Below, in pieces: positions 3,005 through 30,429 of a stretch of 31,517 nt of DNA (position 1 is the stretch's first letter; each line of letters begins with the position of its first letter). The position numbers and the translations under genes were made by a program. The DNA comes from a virus. Below the pieces are notes generated by a model that searched no databases, was not told the DNA's origin, and worked only from the letters and a program-made list of their open reading frames with translations. The stretch spans positions 1-31,517 of the IMG/VR virus record IMGVR_UViG_3300007344_000134, one strand, 5' to 3'.

Positions 3005-3470
3005 AACCCTATCGGGGCCTTCCTCTTTAGCCCACAATGCAACAAGCAAGAAAAAAATTTTTCGTGCAGTCTAAATCCAATTTTTAGACGACCCTAAACC
3101 CAAAACACCCCCACCCATAAAACCCACACAAGGAAACCCATTGACAAGAACCAACTACAAGGAAGCCCTAACAGAGAATAACAAAAAGAAAAACCCCAGA
3201 GGAAAAAAGCGCAAAGGAAAACCCTGAAAGGAAAACCTCGATGGGGAATACTCTACGGGGAACTATACCCCCCATCCGCGTTCCCCGTCCTCGCCCCAAG
3301 ATGCCCCCCGTCTCGGTTCCCGCTCGGGGGCCCCTACGGTTTCCCGCTCCGGGCCTCGCTGTCTGGCCCACCTTCGCGGGCATCCTTTGCAGGTGCCCTT
3401 TCCTTGCGTCCCTTGCTGTGATACCTGAACGGGATACCTGAAAGGGGTAGCGGTGTTAGTGGTGAATGAA
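3005..3470. other. Gene-free, strongly skewed left arm of the palindrome locus
   Basis: No credible gene. From 3100 to 3240 the + strand is purine- and A-rich with repeated GGAAA; from 3280 to 3430 it is very C-rich. A 10-base direct repeat GATACCTGAA occurs near 3420 and 3433. An open frame at 3241-3441 is Pro/Arg-rich and low complexity, which I read as a by-product of composition. Two 9-mers here (CGCCCCAAG at 3292, GGTTTCCCG at 3338) return inverted at 4324 and 4288. A hairpin at about 2985-3035 (GAGGCC against GGCCTT) could be a weak terminator for the upstream genes. Confidence 0.5.
3069..3089. repeat. Outer inverted repeat, left (GTCTAAA/TTTAGAC)
   Basis: GTCTAAA at 3069-3075 and TTTAGAC at 3083-3089 are perfect inverted copies separated by 7 bases. 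The same half-sites occur in opposite order at 4541-4556. The two sites bracket the ribbon-helix-helix locus about equally far from its centre, which suggests a protein-binding site or boundary element. Confidence 0.6.
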
Positions 3471-3498
3471 AGTATATACGCTATATAGAGTATATACG
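3471..3498. repeat. AT-rich palindromic repeat R1
   Basis: The 28-base unit contains GTATATAC, CTATATAG and GTATATAC in succession, each self-complementary. It is the first of three units whose starts are exactly 54 bases apart (3471, 3525, 3579). It looks like an operator or iteron for a small dimeric DNA-binding protein. Confidence 0.75.
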
Positions 3499-3524
3499 CA
3501 AGCAAGGAACAATAACCTGTCTAT

Positions 3525-3552
3525 TGTATATATTCTATATAGTGTATATACG
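3525..3552. repeat. AT-rich palindromic repeat R2
   Basis: Second 28-base unit, aligned with R1 without gaps: GTATATAT, then CTATATAG, then GTATATAC. Only a few positions differ, mostly at the junctions between the small palindromes. It lies one 54-base period downstream of R1. Confidence 0.75.
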
Positions 3553-3578
3553 GAACGCATGAGAGTAAAGCTGTTTGA

Positions 3579-3606
3579 AGTATATATTCTATATAGAATA
3601 TATATT
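3579..3606. repeat. AT-rich palindromic repeat R3, overlapping the promoter of the regulator gene
   Basis: Third unit, again 54 bases on. Positions 3581-3604 form a perfect 24-bp palindrome centred on CTATATAG. Its right end runs into the -7 box TATATTTG (3601-3608) of the downstream gene, so a protein bound here would block that promoter. This fits autoregulation by the ribbon-helix-helix protein. Confidence 0.75.
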
Positions 3607-3608
3607 TG
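3601..3608 (+). promoter_or_regulatory. Candidate -7 box of the ribbon-helix-helix gene
   Basis: TATATTTG fits TAnnTTTG. The nearest TTG (3575-3577) is 23 bases upstream, longer than the usual 19-20, so the promoter may be weak or need help. It overlaps palindrome R3. The predicted start would give a leader of about 20 bases to the ATG at 3635. Confidence 0.5.
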
Positions 3609-4190: not shown

Positions 4191-4215
4191 AAGGCCCATA
4201 AAACGGGCCTTTTTT
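4191..4215 (+). terminator. Intrinsic terminator of the ribbon-helix-helix gene
   Basis: AAGGCCC (4191-4197) pairs with GGGCCTT (4205-4211) across a 7-base loop ATAAAAC, and the 3' arm merges into a run of six T (4210-4215). A 7-bp GC-rich stem with a T tract is a classic intrinsic terminator. Confidence 0.8.
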
Positions 4216-4540
4216 GTGCCCTGTTATAGGGCATAGGACGGGAACCCGGACAAGGGACAAAGGGGAGGGACCGAGCAGGGGAACGGACGGGAAACCCGCA
4301 CGAGGCAAGGGATACGGGGACTTCTTGGGGCGATCAATTTCCCCAACCGCGGCCCCTTTACCGGCCCTTTCCGGTGTCCTCTTCTACGGGTCTTCCTTTC
4401 TTGCTGTTCCCTTCTCTTGGCTTACCTGTTGGGGTGTTCTTGGTTGTTCCTATGTGTAGGGCATTCATTAAGGTATCTTTCGCGCGCACGGGTGAGGACG
4501 GTGATAAATTTAGGGCAATCTAAAAATTTTAGGTTATTCG

Positions 4541-4690: not shown

Positions 4691-4720
4691 TTGTTATTCT
4701 TAAAACAGTGCCTACATTTG
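4691..4720 (+). promoter_or_regulatory. Bacteroidota-type promoter of the accessory gene block
   Basis: TTG (4691-4693), 19 bases, TACATTTG (4713-4720), with TTAAAA in the spacer at the same place as in the promoters at 8712 and 14783. Start predicted near 4726, giving a CA-rich leader of about 45 bases to the ATG at 4771. Confidence 0.8.
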
Positions 4721-25166: not shown

Positions 25167-26645
25167 ATGACCACCCCCCGCAAGACCTCCTTCCCGGCAA
25201 TCCCCTCCTTAGAACACGTTAAGGTTCCTCCCAACGCGGTCGAGTTGGAGGATGCCGTTCTTGGTGCCTGCCTATTGGATGCCGACGCGTTGTCCGAAGT
25301 CTCCTCCATTCTCCGGCCCGAGATGTTCTACAAGTTGGAGCACCAGATGGTGTTCTCTGCTATGATGTCCCTTGAATCCGAGGGGAATCCCGCAGACATC
25401 CTGACCGTGACACAGAGATTGAAAAAGGACGGGAACCTCTCCGTTGTCGGAGGGGCGCATTTCGTGTCAACCCTAACGGACAGGGTCGGTAGCGGTGCCA
25501 ACGCGGAATACCACGCAAGGATCATCGCCCAGAAGTTCATTGCAAGGGAACTCATACGGGTGTCGGGAGACATCTACGCGCAGGCGTTCGATGACACGAT
25601 AGACCCATTGGAACTCCTCGACAGGGCCAATGACGAGGTGGCCTCCATCGGGTCTGACGTTGTGGGAGATGCAGTGGAATCCAATCAAGACCTTCTTAGG
25701 CAGGTGATAGAGGACTCCGAGAGGACGGCCTCGGGGGGGAATGTCATCGGAACCCCCATCGGACTCCGCGAATTGGACATCAAAACAGGAGGCTTGCAGG
25801 AGGGCCACTTGGACATCCTTGCAGGAAGGCCCGGCATGGGCAAGAGCTCCTTCGCCATCTACGAGGCGTACAGGGTGGCGTTCTCGGAGAAGAAGACCGT
25901 GCTGTTCTTCTCATTGGAGATGCCCGCGAAGGAAATCATGCAGAAGATCCTTTCGATTCACACCGGCATCGACTCTTGGAAACTGAAGACAGGGAAGCTC
26001 GACCCCGAGCATTGGAACCGCATCAATGCCATGTCAGGGGAGATTATCAAGGCCCCCATCACAATAATCGACAACATCTCGGAGTGGTCCAAGGTCAGGA
26101 CGAAATGTGTGAACTCCAACAAGAAGCAGCAGATAGGGCTTGTTTCCATTGATTACCTGCAACTCATACAGATTTCCAACAGGAAAGGCAACAGAGAGCA
26201 GGAAATAGGGGAAATCAGCAGGGGGTTGAAGCAACTTGCCAAGCACCTGAAATGCCCCATCCGTGCCCTCGCACAGCTATCGAGAGGAGTTGAGACAAGA
26301 GGTGGCAACAAGAAGCCTATGCTGAGTGATTTGAGGGAATCCGGCTCAATCGAACAGGACGCGGATAGTGTCACCTTCCTGTACCGCCCCGAGTATTACG
26401 GCATAGAGTTCTCCGAGGAGGGAAACCTCCCAACGAACGGCCTCTGCGAGGTCATCATTGCCAAGAACAGGGGAGGACTGACGGGAACGGTTCCCGTTCG
26501 GGTGAACCTCGCAACAAGCACCTTCGAGGGTTGGGAGGGAGGTTCCTTCAAGGCCCCGTCACCGCCACCCATTGAGGAGGTGCAGAGATGGAGCCCCATG
26601 CCGAGAAGCACCGAGTTCGATGACGATGACGGGAACCCTTTTTGA
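25167..26645 (+). CDS. dnaB: Replicative DNA helicase, DnaB family
   Basis: The 492-residue protein has the N-terminal primase-interaction domain (LEDAVLGACLLDADAL at 27-42), a linker, and a RecA-like C-terminal ATPase: Walker A AGRPGMGKSS (219-228), Walker B VSIDYLQLI (326-334), and the LRESGSIEQDAD segment (389-400). Length equals the family norm. The C-terminal 10 residues are acidic and end DDDDGNPF, resembling the SSB tip; see finding. ATG follows immediately on the methyltransferase stop. Confidence 0.9.
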   Translation: MTTPRKTSFPAIPSLEHVKVPPNAVELEDAVLGACLLDADALSEVSSILRPEMFYKLEHQMVFSAMMSLESEGNPADILTVTQRLKKDGNLSVVGGAHFVSTLTDRVGSGANAEYHARIIAQKFIARELIRVSGDIYAQAFDDTIDPLELLDRANDEVASIGSDVVGDAVESNQDLLRQVIEDSERTASGGNVIGTPIGLRELDIKTGGLQEGHLDILAGRPGMGKSSFAIYEAYRVAFSEKKTVLFFSLEMPAKEIMQKILSIHTGIDSWKLKTGKLDPEHWNRINAMSGEIIKAPITIIDNISEWSKVRTKCVNSNKKQQIGLVSIDYLQLIQISNRKGNREQEIGEISRGLKQLAKHLKCPIRALAQLSRGVETRGGNKKPMLSDLRESGSIEQDADSVTFLYRPEYYGIEFSEEGNLPTNGLCEVIIAKNRGGLTGTVPVRVNLATSTFEGWEGGSFKAPSPPPIEEVQRWSPMPRSTEFDDDDGNPF

Positions 26646-26670: not shown

Positions 26671-26700
26671 AGTATATCCAAAAAGCGTTCCCTACATTTG
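26671..26700 (+). promoter_or_regulatory. Candidate promoter after dnaB
   Basis: TACATTTG (26693-26700) is a good -7 box. The -33 region (AGT at 26671) lacks TTG and the spacer has AAAAAG rather than TTAAAA, so it is weaker than the others. Leader 9-27 bases depending on the start chosen. Confidence 0.55.
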
Positions 26701-26715
26701 AAGCCTCAAACAGGA

Positions 26716-27189
26716 ATGTCAAAAAAAACCATCATGGCAAAAACAGCAGTAGTGAAAATCGAAGAGAACACCGAGGACACGTCCCTTCAGGGCATCCTCA
26801 ATAGTTTGTCCCACAACGAGCGTCTTGATTGGCTCGAAACGAATGCCTTCTCCGTGAAGGATGAGGAGTATCATGCCCCGCTCTCTGCGGAGGAACTTGA
26901 CGAGGTGAAGGGTTTTATCACTCAGCAGAACATCAAGTTGCAGGAATTGGAAGACAAGAAAAATAGGTTCATGGAGGAGCTCAACGCTGAGTTGAAGCCC
27001 GCCAAAGAGAAACTTGAAGTGGCCGTTCGCGAGGCGCGCTCAAATGAGCGTCAGGGCTTTGGTAAGGTGTACTACGTGCCGAACCACGAAGAGGGTATCA
27101 CTTACAAGGTCACGGAAGGGAATCTTATCGTAGGCAGCCGCCCGATGCGTTCCGAGGAGCGTCAGATGAATCTCCTTGCCAAGGTGTAA
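26716..27189 (+). CDS. Coiled-coil protein, unknown (157 or 151 aa)
   Basis: Two starts are possible, ATG 26716 and ATG 26734 (MAKTAVVKIEEN). The protein has two helical parts (ILNSLSHNERLDWLETNAF, then ELDEVKGFITQQNIKLQEL) and a basic strand-like end (FGKVYYVPNHEEGITYKV). Long E/K/L stretch at about 70-115. No family recognised. Stop overlaps the next ATG (TAATG). Confidence 0.6.
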   Translation: MSKKTIMAKTAVVKIEENTEDTSLQGILNSLSHNERLDWLETNAFSVKDEEYHAPLSAEELDEVKGFITQQNIKLQELEDKKNRFMEELNAELKPAKEKLEVAVREARSNERQGFGKVYYVPNHEEGITYKVTEGNLIVGSRPMRSEERQMNLLAKV

Positions 27190-27356
27190 TGAAGTTGGTT
27201 CCTTTGGGGAGGTGGCGAAAGATAGACGCTATGTATCCTTTAGAGTTGACTGGTAACGTATGTACCTCATCAATGGGCGACAATCCACCGATAGGTTTGA
27301 GGGAAGACAACGTAGCAGATTACAGGAAAGGTGAGGAGCTTATGCTGAACCTCTAA
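27189..27356 (+). CDS. Small unknown protein (55 aa), overlapping a tRNA-like signal
   Basis: ATG 27189 overlaps the previous stop as TAATG and the frame runs to TAA 27354. The protein (MKLVPLGRWRKIDAMYPLEL start, DYRKGEELMLNL end) has ordinary composition and two cysteine/serine-rich turns. The stop/start coupling supports it. Bases 27206-27230 of this gene also read as the first part of a tRNA-Leu-like arm; see the next feature and findings. Confidence 0.5.
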   Translation: MKLVPLGRWRKIDAMYPLELTGNVCTSSMGDNPPIGLREDNVADYRKGEELMLNL

Positions 27357-27394
27357 ACTTCAACTCGTGCAGGTATCAAATCCTGTCCTCCCCA
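27206..27394 (+). other. tRNA-Leu-like halves bracketing a long insert
   Basis: GGGGAGG (27206-27212) pairs perfectly with CCTCCCC (27387-27393). The 5' part continues TGGCGAAAGATAGACGC, close to the D arm of Bacteroidota tRNA-Leu, and the 3' part has a T arm (GCAGG, an 8-base loop TATCAAAT, CCTGT; 27369-27386). About 140 bases lie between the two. An alternative 5' end (GGTGAGG at 27330, one mismatch) would give a 65-base tRNA with a truncated D arm and loop CTCTAAA, anticodon CUA. Not a certain gene. Confidence 0.3.
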
Positions 27395-27547
27395 TCGGAA
27401 TCACATTCAAGAGTAATTCAACAGTAAAACCAATTATCAGCCTCAAGAGGATTGCCAGTCAGGAACAGGCTGGAAGAGGATGACAAACGGGAACAGACCG
27501 CTTGCCAACGGAGAAGAAATCCGTGACACCTCGGAAAGACGGGTAAT
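27357..27547. other. Gene-free, hairpin-containing segment before the tRNA
   Basis: No open frame of note. After the tRNA-like 3' end, CAGCCT (27438-27443) pairs with AGGCTG (27467-27472), CGG-GAACAGA-CCG occurs near 27488-27500, and ACGGA (27508-27512) pairs with TCCGT (27520-27524). The stems may be part of the transcript that carries the tRNA. Nothing else recognised. Confidence 0.4.
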
Positions 27548-27621
27548 GGGGACATAGCTCAGTTGGTTAGAACGGTTGCTTTGCAAGCAATAGGTCGGGG
27601 GTTCAAGTCCCTCTGTCTCCA
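27548..27621 (+). tRNA. tRNA-Ala(UGC): tRNA-Ala (anticodon UGC)
   Basis: Complete cloverleaf: acceptor GGGGACA with TGTCTCC, D arm GCTC...GAGC-like, anticodon stem GTTGC/GCAAT with loop TTTGCAA (anticodon TGC), T arm GGGGG, loop TTCAAGT, CCCTC, discriminator A at 27621. The acceptor contains the G3-U70 wobble pair that identifies tRNA-Ala. CCA is not encoded (CTAAAG follows). Phage tRNAs usually complement codons the phage uses more than its host. Confidence 0.95.
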
Positions 27622-27671
27622 CTAAAGCGCAACACGTGCAAACCGTGCCCTACCCGTATTTAATCGCGCGA

Positions 27672-27707
27672 GGCTCGTGGCTCAGAAACCACAAGCCGAT
27701 TTTTTTT
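27672..27707 (+). terminator. Intrinsic terminator after tRNA-Ala
   Basis: GGCT-C-GTGG (27672-27680) pairs with CCAC-A-AGCC (27689-27697) around an 8-base loop, followed by GA and eight T (27700-27707). The same 3' bases can also pair in an AAGCCG/CGGCTT hairpin (27693-27713), so the site may work in both directions or as two competing forms. Confidence 0.75.
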
Positions 27708-27741
27708 CGGCTTTCATGTCGAGAATCCAAAAACTTTCAAT

Positions 27742-27749
27742 TAACTTTG
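27742..27749 (+). promoter_or_regulatory. Candidate -7 box for the small RNA
   Basis: TAACTTTG matches TAnnTTTG and lies 12 bases before the 5' arm of the long hairpin. The -33 position (27720-27722) has no TTG, so confidence is moderate. Confidence 0.45.
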
Positions 27750-27755
27750 TCTCAG

Positions 27756-27871
27756 CTTTTGGGAGGGAGCTAATTGAGATGTTGAAATAGGATTTTTAGA
27801 GCTCTACGCTCGGACCCGCCAACATGTCAACAGCTCCTTCCCAGAGTAAGCATAAGACGGGTCTTTTTTTT
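27756..27871 (+). ncRNA. Candidate small structured RNA (about 115 nt)
   Basis: GGGAGGGAGCT (27761-27771) pairs with AGCTCCTTCCC (27832-27842), 11 bp with one G-U. The stem goes on with TTGA/TCAA (27774-27777, 27827-27830), a G-G mismatch and ATGTTG/CAACAT (27779-27784, 27820-27825). A 35-base apical loop holds GAGC-TCTAC-GCTC (27799-27811). A -7 box lies just before and a T-tract hairpin just after. No open frame of note is on either strand. Such a rod-like RNA with terminal loop could regulate transcription or pair with host RNA; the family is unknown to me. Confidence 0.55.
27854..27871 (+). terminator. Short terminator-like hairpin with T8 tract
   Basis: AAGA (27854-27857), loop CGGG, TCTT (27862-27865), then the T run to 27871. 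The stem is short, so the efficiency is uncertain, but it follows the long hairpin directly. Confidence 0.5.
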
Positions 27872-28230
27872 GCCCTGAACTGAGATGATGCAGGTGAAAG
27901 AGTACTGCACTACCAATGTTCGGGAACAGGACAAAGAACCGCAGCAGAATGAAGGAATACGGGGTCGGGATAGTAACGGCAGCCCATTTCATTCTGTGCT
28001 ACTGTGGGATGCGTGAAGCAAACGGGGAGAGCAAGGAGAGAACCCCAAGCGCACAGGCGGCAGGAAAGCCTGGAAGTTCCTCTCGAGTCGTCTGACACTG
28101 CCTGTCAGCGATGTGGGCGATAGGGGGGATGGCTCCGTTTAGGAACATTTTTCAAAATCGACTTCCACGGCTCTCACAGGTGCGGAAACGCGCTTGGGAG
28201 GCGAAGCCGTGGGACTCCTGAAAGAATTCA
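27872..28230 (+). other. Gene-free segment dense in stem-loops; candidate large structured RNA
   Basis: No credible frame on either strand. Stems seen: CAGAATGAA (27945-27953) with TTCATTCTG (27988-27996); GGGG with CCCC (about 28024-28046); CAGGC with GCCTG (28054-28058, 28068-28072); CTGACA-CTGCC-TGTCAG (28092-28108); and TTCCACGGCT with AGCCGTGGGA (about 28165-28214) enclosing GTGCG-GAAA-CGCGC, a GNRA tetraloop hairpin. This density of long stems and a GNRA loop is unlike spacer DNA. It sits beside a tRNA, as do the large ornate RNAs GOLLD and ROOL of phages (known association); whether it belongs to one is open. Confidence 0.45.
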
Positions 28231-28233
28231 CCA

Positions 28234-28267
28234 TTTAGGAATTACCCTTTACAAGGTATTTCCTAAA
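28234..28267. repeat. AT-rich inverted repeat A upstream of terL
   Basis: TTTAGGAA-T-TACC (28234-28246) pairs with GGTA-T-TTCCTAAA (28255-28267), 12 bp with one T-T mismatch and an 8-base loop. Could be an operator, a terminator-like stem or part of a packaging site. Confidence 0.55.
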
Positions 28268-28318
28268 AAAGTATCCATTAAAGGGAATTTTATAGAAACA
28301 CTTTTATAGGGATACTTT
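28268..28318. repeat. AT-rich inverted repeat B upstream of terL
   Basis: AAAGTATCC (28268-28276) and GGATACTTT (28310-28318) are perfect 9-base inverted arms, 33 bases apart, abutting repeat A. TTTTATAG is repeated twice within. The pair lies about 100 bases before the terminase start. Confidence 0.55.
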
Positions 28319-28377
28319 CATCTATTGCCCAAGCTATGCCTCAGAAATAGATCAAAGAAAGGATTTCCCAACCGAGG

Positions 28378-28385
28378 TATCTTTG
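28378..28385 (+). promoter_or_regulatory. Candidate -7 box of terL
   Basis: TATCTTTG matches TAnnTTTG with a leader of about 23-28 bases to ATG 28414. No TTG at the -33 position and no TTAAAA, so it may be a late promoter of different type or need an activator. Confidence 0.45.
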
Positions 28386-28413
28386 CAGGGAACCCATTCA
28401 AGAACCTTGCAGC

Positions 28414-30429
28414 ATGAACAGTAACGAGTACGAGATAGAGACAAGCCAGCCCGACCCCGAATCGGGAGCCTCTGAGCACGGCAAGGAGGCAACGTCCATC
28501 CCTAAGCTGATCCTCCCTGCACCGATACCCGTCAGGCCACCCAAGTATTCTCGGAATCAGTACGAGGAGGAACACAAGGAGTGGCTCAGAAAGAAGCGAG
28601 GGGAATCGGCATGGAGAACTGAGCAAAGGAGGAGATGGAAAGAGGGGTTTGCGGGATTGACGGGAATCCACTACTTCTACATTACCCAGATGCGGATAAA
28701 GGACGCGGAGGGAAATCCCATCCGGCCCATGTGGAGGGATGTGGACGAGGAAATCTTCCGAGAGTTCGAGCTGTGCTACAAGGACGAAATCGACTTCTAC
28801 GTGTTCAAGAGACGTGAGGTGGGACTTTCATCCGTGTTCGGAGGTGCGATTCCATTGTACCTCCTCATCATGTACCCCAACAGCACCTCGCTAATGACCT
28901 CCGCTGACCTTACCCGCGTGAAGGACCTCATGGCGAACAAGCTCATTGCCCAGCACAGCTACCTTGAGGATTGGGTAAAGCCGAAAAGGAAGACCTACGA
29001 CCCGCAGAAAGGGGCCACGTTCTTGGAGATTGACGAGGACGGCAACGAGACAGGGAACATGGCCGAGATTGTTTGCAGGCAGACATCGCAGGATAAGAAG
29101 GACGTGACCAACTTGGAGGGCGCAAGGGCCAAGTATGTGTTCCTTGACGAGCTCTTCCTTCACCCGTACCCCGAGGAGGTCCGCTCGTCAGCCCAATCGT
29201 GTCTCATGTCGGGCATGGAAAGAGTTGGGATCATGGTGGCGGGAGGTAGCGCGGGTGCCGTGTCGAGGCTCGGACTGAAACAGGCAAGGGAAATATCTCA
29301 GAAGGCATTGACGGGAAGCCTGAGAATGCTGTTTCTGTCGGGGGCGAAGGGGATAACAGCCGCAACGATACGAGATGAGAACGGAAAGAAGATAGGCACG
29401 GAGAACTTCTGCATAAACGGATGGTCGGACGTGGCGCGGGCAGAGGCATACATTAAATGGCAGAGAGCGATACTTGACCTGAGCCCCAACAAACAGGAAC
29501 TCATCTCATTCACCAAGAGGTATCCGCTCACGCTCGAAGAGGTACTCACGTCAGACGATTTCGGGGTGATTCCAAGAGACATTGCCGAGCAGATACCCGC
29601 ACAGGAACTCGAACTAAGAAGCAACCCAAGAAACCTCAAACGGGTCACGATAACATTCGAGAACGGGAAGCCAACTTTCAGGAACGACAGCAGAGGCGCG
29701 TGGCTCATCCTTGAACACCCGGTCGCTGGAGAGTACTACTGGATGGGAACGGACGCGATTCCCATGATGGCAAAGAAGGCTGAGGCCACAATAAACCCCG
29801 ATGGAACGGAGCGGTCGATGCACTGCTCGGCCATTAAACGGAAAGGCACCAACAGCTACGTTGCCATATATCTCCGCAGGACATCCGATGTGGACCTCAT
29901 ATTCGATGAGATGTTCGCAGCTCAACAGGCATATAACAACTGCCAGAACATGATTGAGAGAAACTCCGCAGGACTCATCTACGATAGATACTCCCGTAGC
30001 GGAAACCTCAAATACCTCGCGTATCAACCAGAAGCGTTCGGCTCCAAGGGATTCAAGAAGGGAACCGTCAGGGGAGTACACAAGGACGGGCACAACTCGG
30101 AAAGGATCTACAACGCAGGGTTCGACTACTTCAGGGACAACATGCGCCTCGTTGACTTCCCTATCATCCTCGAACAGCTCAGAGTGTTCGGCTCAGAGAA
30201 CACGGACGTGATTGACGCGATAATGATGTGCGAGGTGTTCCATAAGTATCAGGAGATCTCAGCAGGGGAACGCGCTGTCAGGGCCATGAAGCAGACCTAC
30301 AAATACCAACCCTACATCACATACGAGAACGGGAACCGCGTAGTGAGACACAAGAAGGTGGCCGTCAATTCGGCAGGTCAAGTAATAGGCCCCCATCAAG
30401 GAATGACACCACTGACAGGATTATTGTGA
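28414..30429 (+). CDS. terL: Terminase large subunit (ATPase/nuclease)
   Basis: The 671-residue protein is the DNA-packaging motor. An N-terminal basic, Pro-rich tail precedes the ATPase: a Walker-A-like KRREVGLSS at 132-140, Walker B YVFLDELF at 241-248 (Asp245, Glu246), and a coupling-like segment VAGGSAGAVS (275-284). The nuclease part begins with MGTD (444-447), with the late TDVIDAIMM (about 594-602) as probable metal ligands. It is longer than many terminases. No small-subunit gene is seen upstream, where only structured non-coding DNA is present. ATG 28414 is the only sensible start. Confidence 0.85.
   Translation: MNSNEYEIETSQPDPESGASEHGKEATSIPKLILPAPIPVRPPKYSRNQYEEEHKEWLRKKRGESAWRTEQRRRWKEGFAGLTGIHYFYITQMRIKDAEGNPIRPMWRDVDEEIFREFELCYKDEIDFYVFKRREVGLSSVFGGAIPLYLLIMYPNSTSLMTSADLTRVKDLMANKLIAQHSYLEDWVKPKRKTYDPQKGATFLEIDEDGNETGNMAEIVCRQTSQDKKDVTNLEGARAKYVFLDELFLHPYPEEVRSSAQSCLMSGMERVGIMVAGGSAGAVSRLGLKQAREISQKALTGSLRMLFLSGAKGITAATIRDENGKKIGTENFCINGWSDVARAEAYIKWQRAILDLSPNKQELISFTKRYPLTLEEVLTSDDFGVIPRDIAEQIPAQELELRSNPRNLKRVTITFENGKPTFRNDSRGAWLILEHPVAGEYYWMGTDAIPMMAKKAEATINPDGTERSMHCSAIKRKGTNSYVAIYLRRTSDVDLIFDEMFAAQQAYNNCQNMIERNSAGLIYDRYSRSGNLKYLAYQPEAFGSKGFKKGTVRGVHKDGHNSERIYNAGFDYFRDNMRLVDFPIILEQLRVFGSENTDVIDAIMMCEVFHKYQEISAGERAVRAMKQTYKYQPYITYENGNRVVRHKKVAVNSAGQVIGPHQGMTPLTGLL

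Follow-up and report, generated by a model that had tools for sequence, protein, structure and literature searches.

The window examined here is the whole of a viral DNA record of 31,517 bases. A DnaB-type helicase gene and a gene for a 163-aa protein precede, and the gene for the terminase large subunit (terL) follows, a stretch (27190-28413) that has no recognisable protein gene and contains one tRNA-Ala together with several structured segments (Table 1). One of these segments, at 27754-27871, is probably a real, stand-alone phage small RNA (sRNA), as judged from the signals in its sequence, and it lies where the preliminary description had placed it, between the tRNA and terL, at a distance of ~540 nt from the latter. 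A terminator-like hairpin separates it from the tRNA unit and terL possesses a promoter box of its own, so that the element would constitute its own unit.

Table 1. Features of the sRNA locus and of its surroundings (MFE, minimum free energy fold)
Feature	Position	Strand	Remarks
DnaB-type helicase gene	25167-26645		PF03796, E 8e-82
163-aa protein ORF	26698-27189		relative in Cellulophaga phage phi39:1
tRNA-Ala(TGC)	27548-27622	+	5' neighbour of the sRNA element
Terminator-like hairpin, GGCTCGTGG/CCACAAGCC + T8	27671-27707	+	between the tRNA unit and the sRNA
Upstream promoter stretch, ATCCAAAAACTTTCAAT	27725-27741	+	contains ATCCAAAAA
-7 box, TAACTTTG	27742-27749	+	perfect match to TAnnTTTG, the Bacteroidota sigma-A consensus
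Predicted transcript, ~118 nt	27754-27871	+	start 5 nt past the -7 box, end in T8; fold z -4.27
Outermost pairs, GCU/AGC	27755-27757 with 27849-27851	+	MFE; rod closed from transcript position +2
Rod 5' arm, 24 nt	27761-27784	+	11 + 4 + 6 pairs; MFE and sequence
Palindrome, TAGAGCTCTA	27797-27806	+	perfect, 10 nt; apical region; possible loop-loop dimerisation site
Apical hairpin, GAGC-UCUAC-GCUC	27799-27811	+	MFE and centroid
GGACCCG	27812-27818	+	possible 5' strand of pseudoknot/terminator stem; complementary to 27858-27864
Rod 3' arm	27820-27842	+	MFE and sequence
CGGGTC, then T8	27858-27871	+	3' strand of possible pseudoknot/terminator stem, and termination tract
terL box, TATCTTTG	28378-28385	+	TAnnTTTG type
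terL	28414-30429	+	phrog_6681, E 4.1e-15

The putative promoter of the sRNA is built around a -7 box of the Bacteroidota sigma-A type, for which the consensus TAnnTTTG is located at -12 to -5 relative to the transcription start (PMC9723704; PMC7366714), and this position puts the predicted start at 27754, one base ahead of the outermost helix pair. The probability of finding TAnnTTTG by chance in a given 8-nt slot is about 0.001. The motif occurs 12 times on the + strand of the record, compared with 3.95 +/- 2.2 in shuffled sequences, and twice on the - strand, and it is often located shortly upstream of genes (for example, at 4713, 8734, 14805, 26693, and 28378); both the perfect box and this enrichment support, at the level of sequence, the promoter signal proposed in the preliminary description. 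There is no clear -33 TTTG upstream of the sRNA box, and a -33 box is not identifiable in F. johnsoniae either (PMC7366714). The arrangement ATCCAAAAA-N8-TAnnTTTG, with identical spacing, is common to the sRNA site and the site at 26693, which precedes the ORF at 26698-27189. We also note a stronger promoter class before phage genes (1528, 4713, 8734, 14805, and 30469) in which TTG/TTTGC is followed by TTAAAA or TAAAAA and then by TAnnTTTG at near-fixed spacing. The TAnnTTTG boxes, together with relatives of the helicase in Bacteroidota genomes, point to a Bacteroidota host for the phage.

Both the MFE and centroid structures of the element consist of a single rod, and the interrupted helix of 11, 4, and 6 bp described previously is reproduced with exact coordinates. 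The outer helix pairs GGGAGGGAGCT (27761-27771) with AGCTCCTTCCC (27832-27842) and includes one G-U pair at 27765/27838, the middle helix pairs TTGA (27774-27777) with TCAA (27827-27830), and the inner helix pairs ATGTTG (27779-27784) with CAACAT (27820-27825). The central rod is interrupted by only 1-2 nt between helices, leaving the apex as the one open part, and the apical GAGC/GCTC hairpin that had also been described (27799-27802 with 27808-27811) is retained in both predictions. When 27740-27880 is folded, the energy is -51.1 kcal/mol (z -4.75), a value that none of 200 shuffles attained, and for 27754-27842 the z of -4.95 was equalled in 2 of 10,000 shuffles. Ranked by z, the rod is fourth among 1258 100-nt windows on both strands; in raw energy it stands out less (79th of 3140 windows), because GC-rich windows elsewhere in the record fold well too. 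The reverse strand of the rod region folds about as well (z -4.94), so that which strand is transcribed is indicated by the -7 box together with the T tract. Consistent with the absence of coding potential noted at the outset, no ORF contained in 27754-27871 reaches 20 aa, and the ORFs that overlap this segment enter from outside and are random-looking.

The 3' end of the predicted transcript is marked by a T8 tract (27864-27871), which would be expected within 30 nt of the end of the rod with a chance probability of about 0.007. Of the terminator signal claimed in the preliminary description, the tract is present, but a GC-rich hairpin directly before it is not: the upstream 45 nt fold at just -5.4 kcal/mol with no strong local hairpin, and a terminator scan at the tract returned no call. 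There is, however, a more distant partner for the sequence preceding the tract, as GGACCCG at 27812-27818 and CGGGTCT at 27858-27864 can form six Watson-Crick pairs and one G-U pair in a duplex of -11.1 kcal/mol, and freeing both strands (GGACCCG and CGGGUCU) costs the rod only 2.1 kcal/mol. With the rod formed, the geometry is that of an H-type pseudoknot; without it, the same pairing is a hairpin with a loop of ~40 nt. The modelled pairing is suggestive of either a pseudoknot or a terminator with a long loop. The complementarity itself is suggestive, being only modestly unlikely to arise by chance, and in a looser shuffle test in which G-U pairs were counted it was not significant (p 0.42-0.79). 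An ordinary terminator near 4196-4216 has a similar 3' half (CATAARACGGGYCTTTTTT; compare CATAAAACGGGCCTTTTTT with CATAAGACGGGTCTTTTTT), and its stem pairs GGGCC with GGCCC where GGGTC could pair with GACCC in the sRNA, a likeness that is no more than suggestive. We also observe that three T tracts, at 27693-27713, 27858-27875, and 4203-4222, have complementary flanks on both sides (AGCCGA-T8-CGGCTT, CGGGTC-T8-GCCC, and CGGGCC-T6-GTGCCC), and hence the segment before such a tract would have two possible partners, one upstream and one on the far side of the tract.

The only DNA relative found is IMGVR_UViG_3300034374_008984 (73.6 kb), in which all of the 1.4 kb compared is identical; this sole other copy of the element, being 100% identical, offers no variation in which covariation could show. 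When viral and genome contigs were scanned with TerL, the 163-aa protein, and the helicase, two further loci (L003 and L009) and more distant ones were recovered, none with the RNA. In L003, whose TerL is 59% identical, terL directly follows the helicase gene with no RNA between them, and in L009 (helicase 57%, 163-aa protein 68%) unrelated sequence follows the gene for the 163-aa protein; the element would therefore be accessory at the matching place, although both contigs are short and it could sit elsewhere in those phages. A covariance model based on the single sequence gave no credible match in 80 further Bacteroidota loci, eight whole genomes, and 395 Bacteroidota genomes, which is weak evidence for an absence of homologues because such a model reaches close relatives only and the 395-genome search was filtered strictly. 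The one hit of the model (L105, E 0.02) was rejected, as it runs antisense in a 458-aa ORF, most of its outer rod pairs are broken, and it has no rod fold. Pattern scans with the apical and arm sequences returned the identical contig, L024 (a 20-nt match), and L131-L133, the latter four unsupported by the model. Among the matches listed, all those obtained by BLAST of the whole non-coding region fell on the tRNA-Ala, both against phages and against the 395 Bacteroidota genomes. No Rfam family matches the sRNA, the outcome that the preliminary description would expect of a novel RNA: at gathering thresholds the tRNA alone was found, and at relaxed thresholds there were chance matches to miRNA precursors arising from the rod shape.

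Three independent signals, the -7 box, the rod, and the T tract, thus occur in the right order and with the right spacing, and it is because of this coincidence that we prefer to read the element as a stand-alone RNA gene, in support of the discrete, independently transcribed phage RNA of the preliminary description. Taken alone, this step is in our estimation quite likely to be correct; for the whole proposal, a stand-alone sRNA gene with a rod, a pseudoknotted end, and a trans-acting apex, we lean towards acceptance with less assurance. Host sigma-A polymerase would initiate at ~27754 from the TAACTTTG box, and the transcript is predicted, with strong statistics, to fold at once into a rod of ~21 pairs. 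Less firmly, the emerging 3' tail, CGGGUCU, may pair back with the apical GGACCCG just ahead of U8, and the resulting pseudoknotted end may act both as terminator and as 3' protection. More speculatively, the stable ~118-nt RNA could act in trans via its apical region, which might either form base pairs or make a loop-loop contact at the TAGAGCUCUA palindrome; two apical loops cofold at -16.3 kcal/mol, compared with 2 x -6.0 kcal/mol separately. The patchy presence of the element suggests an accessory role in host interaction rather than a core phage function, and a trans-acting accessory sRNA is the mechanism that we favour.

Trans-antisense pairing is the commonest mode of action among bacterial and phage sRNAs. 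A narrower form of the trans-acting explanation is that the RNA pairs with a phage or host mRNA via its apical or tail segment, and we regard this as possible rather than probable: it would correspond to the most frequent action of such RNAs as reviewed (PMC12197685), but neither for the apical loop nor for the tail were the best duplex partners in the coding strands of the phage outliers.

An alternative at the level of DNA is that the element is an imperfect inverted repeat before terL, serving as an operator or as a replication or packaging site, and that the box and T tract are coincidental or belong to other units. The equally good folding of the reverse strand would be explained in this way, and the palindromes at 28230-28322 upstream of terL and the TATATA-rich inverted repeats at 3468-3607 indicate that the phage uses inverted repeats. 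However, the box, rod, and T8 are ordered and spaced as in an RNA gene, and arms that are 35 nt apart, interrupted, and joined in part by a G-U pair are unlike a dyad operator; we consider this alternative unlikely. We give still less credence to a new class of RNA combining a rod with a pseudoknot, in which the second stem is the terminator, the palindromic apex dimerises the RNA, and the role is either structural (packaging/assembly) or in host takeover; this we would call very unlikely.

The preliminary description had offered a 6S-like polymerase decoy as one possible function, and the sRNA does share with 6S-Flavo (RF01685) its length class (108 positions in the model) and an overall rod shape, and it has an asymmetric apical bubble. 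Nevertheless, none of the 6S-family models matches it even at E up to 10, and the single-sequence model of the sRNA showed no similarity to host 6S loci. The host 6S-Flavo RNAs that served as the control in this comparison look different, with weaker folds (about -20 to -27 kcal/mol) and an open central bubble in place of the nearly continuous pairing of the phage rod, and a phage-made decoy of this kind is highly improbable.

With terL downstream, it is tempting to think of a packaging or assembly RNA that multimerises through its TAGAGCUCUA loop and works with the adjacent terminase in the manner of the phi29 prohead (packaging) RNA, which is likewise phage-encoded, structured, ~120 nt in length, capable of loop-loop self-association, and encoded near the packaging ATPase gene. 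Our ~118-nt sRNA, upstream of terL and with a self-complementary apical loop, nonetheless has no three-way junction with two interlocking loops (its MFE and centroid structures being a single rod), the packaging gene ~540 nt away is of the terminase type, and the relative with 59% identical TerL has no RNA between helicase and terL, albeit on a 5.6-kb fragment. We rate this reading as very improbable. The cis form of the antisense RNA proposed earlier was discarded, since there is no recognisable gene on the opposite strand, where the ORF at 27804-27992 matches no family.

The favoured reading, a stand-alone sRNA, has parallels in the independent intergenic sRNAs of Bacteroidota, such as the Rfp RNAs of F. 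psychrophilum (PMC9723704) and GibS and others in B. thetaiotaomicron (PMC7366714), which are also short, intergenic, and non-coding, carry TAnnTTTG as their -7 box, and finish in a T tract at the 3' end. The phage element differs from these in being phage-borne, in having no sequence relative found, and in its non-local and possibly pseudoknotted terminator stem. Independent RNAs of this sort are common in the phylum, with 85 new ones of median length 176 bp described in F. psychrophilum (PMC9723704). The pseudoknotted sRNA RydC (PMC4337610) resembles the phage RNA in its compactness, U-tract end, and a pseudoknot in the fold, which for the phage RNA is a proposed one; no sequence similarity is claimed, and in the phage sRNA it is the proposed pseudoknot that would provide the stem of the terminator. 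Phage-derived sRNAs are already known as a kind (reviewed in PMC12197685, where Bacteroidota hosts are unmentioned), as are pseudoknotted sRNAs, and the sRNA described here is an orphan for which neither a family nor a function can be demonstrated. Little work has been done on non-coding RNAs in the phages of Bacteroidota. A well-formed candidate that combines a promoter, a rod, and end signals provides a direct target for RNA-seq during infection, and if the pseudoknotted end is a true terminator, the geometry of termination would be uncommon.

Other structured features are present in the record. The segment at 27206-27396 has tRNA-like ends (GGGGAGG with CCTCCCC), a GCG/CGC D-like arm, and a T-like arm (GCAGG TATCAAAT CCTGT), and where the anticodon/variable region would be, about 115 extra nt lie between GAGTTGA and TCAACTC, a layout resembling that of a tmRNA or of a tRNA-Leu with an interruption. 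Neither of these is called there by ARAGORN or Rfam, and the tmRNA and intron options of ARAGORN gave no credible call on 27207-27396; in BLAST searches its 3' end alone matched short stretches in other phages, one of which is an annotated tRNA-Pro. A sub-threshold Rfam match to Betaproteobacteria-1 RNA (RF02932; E 0.033, 24.4 bits compared with a cut-off of 49.4) covers 27954-28088, where GGTCGGG...AACGGCAGC and CTGTGGGA are conserved-looking; among other viral contigs, this pattern was found in the identical contig only. Further into the non-coding stretch before terL there is a strong hairpin at 28162-28222 (z -4.6 for 28151-28250), followed at 28230-28322 and upstream of the terL promoter box by two successive near-palindromes, TTTAGGAATTACCC...GGTATTTCCTAAA and AAGTATCC...GGGATACTTT, which are possibly operator or packaging sites. 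Finally, the most extreme fold of the record (z -7.3) is formed by the repeated TATATA-rich inverted repeats at 3468-3607, which end in a TATATTTG box at 3601.
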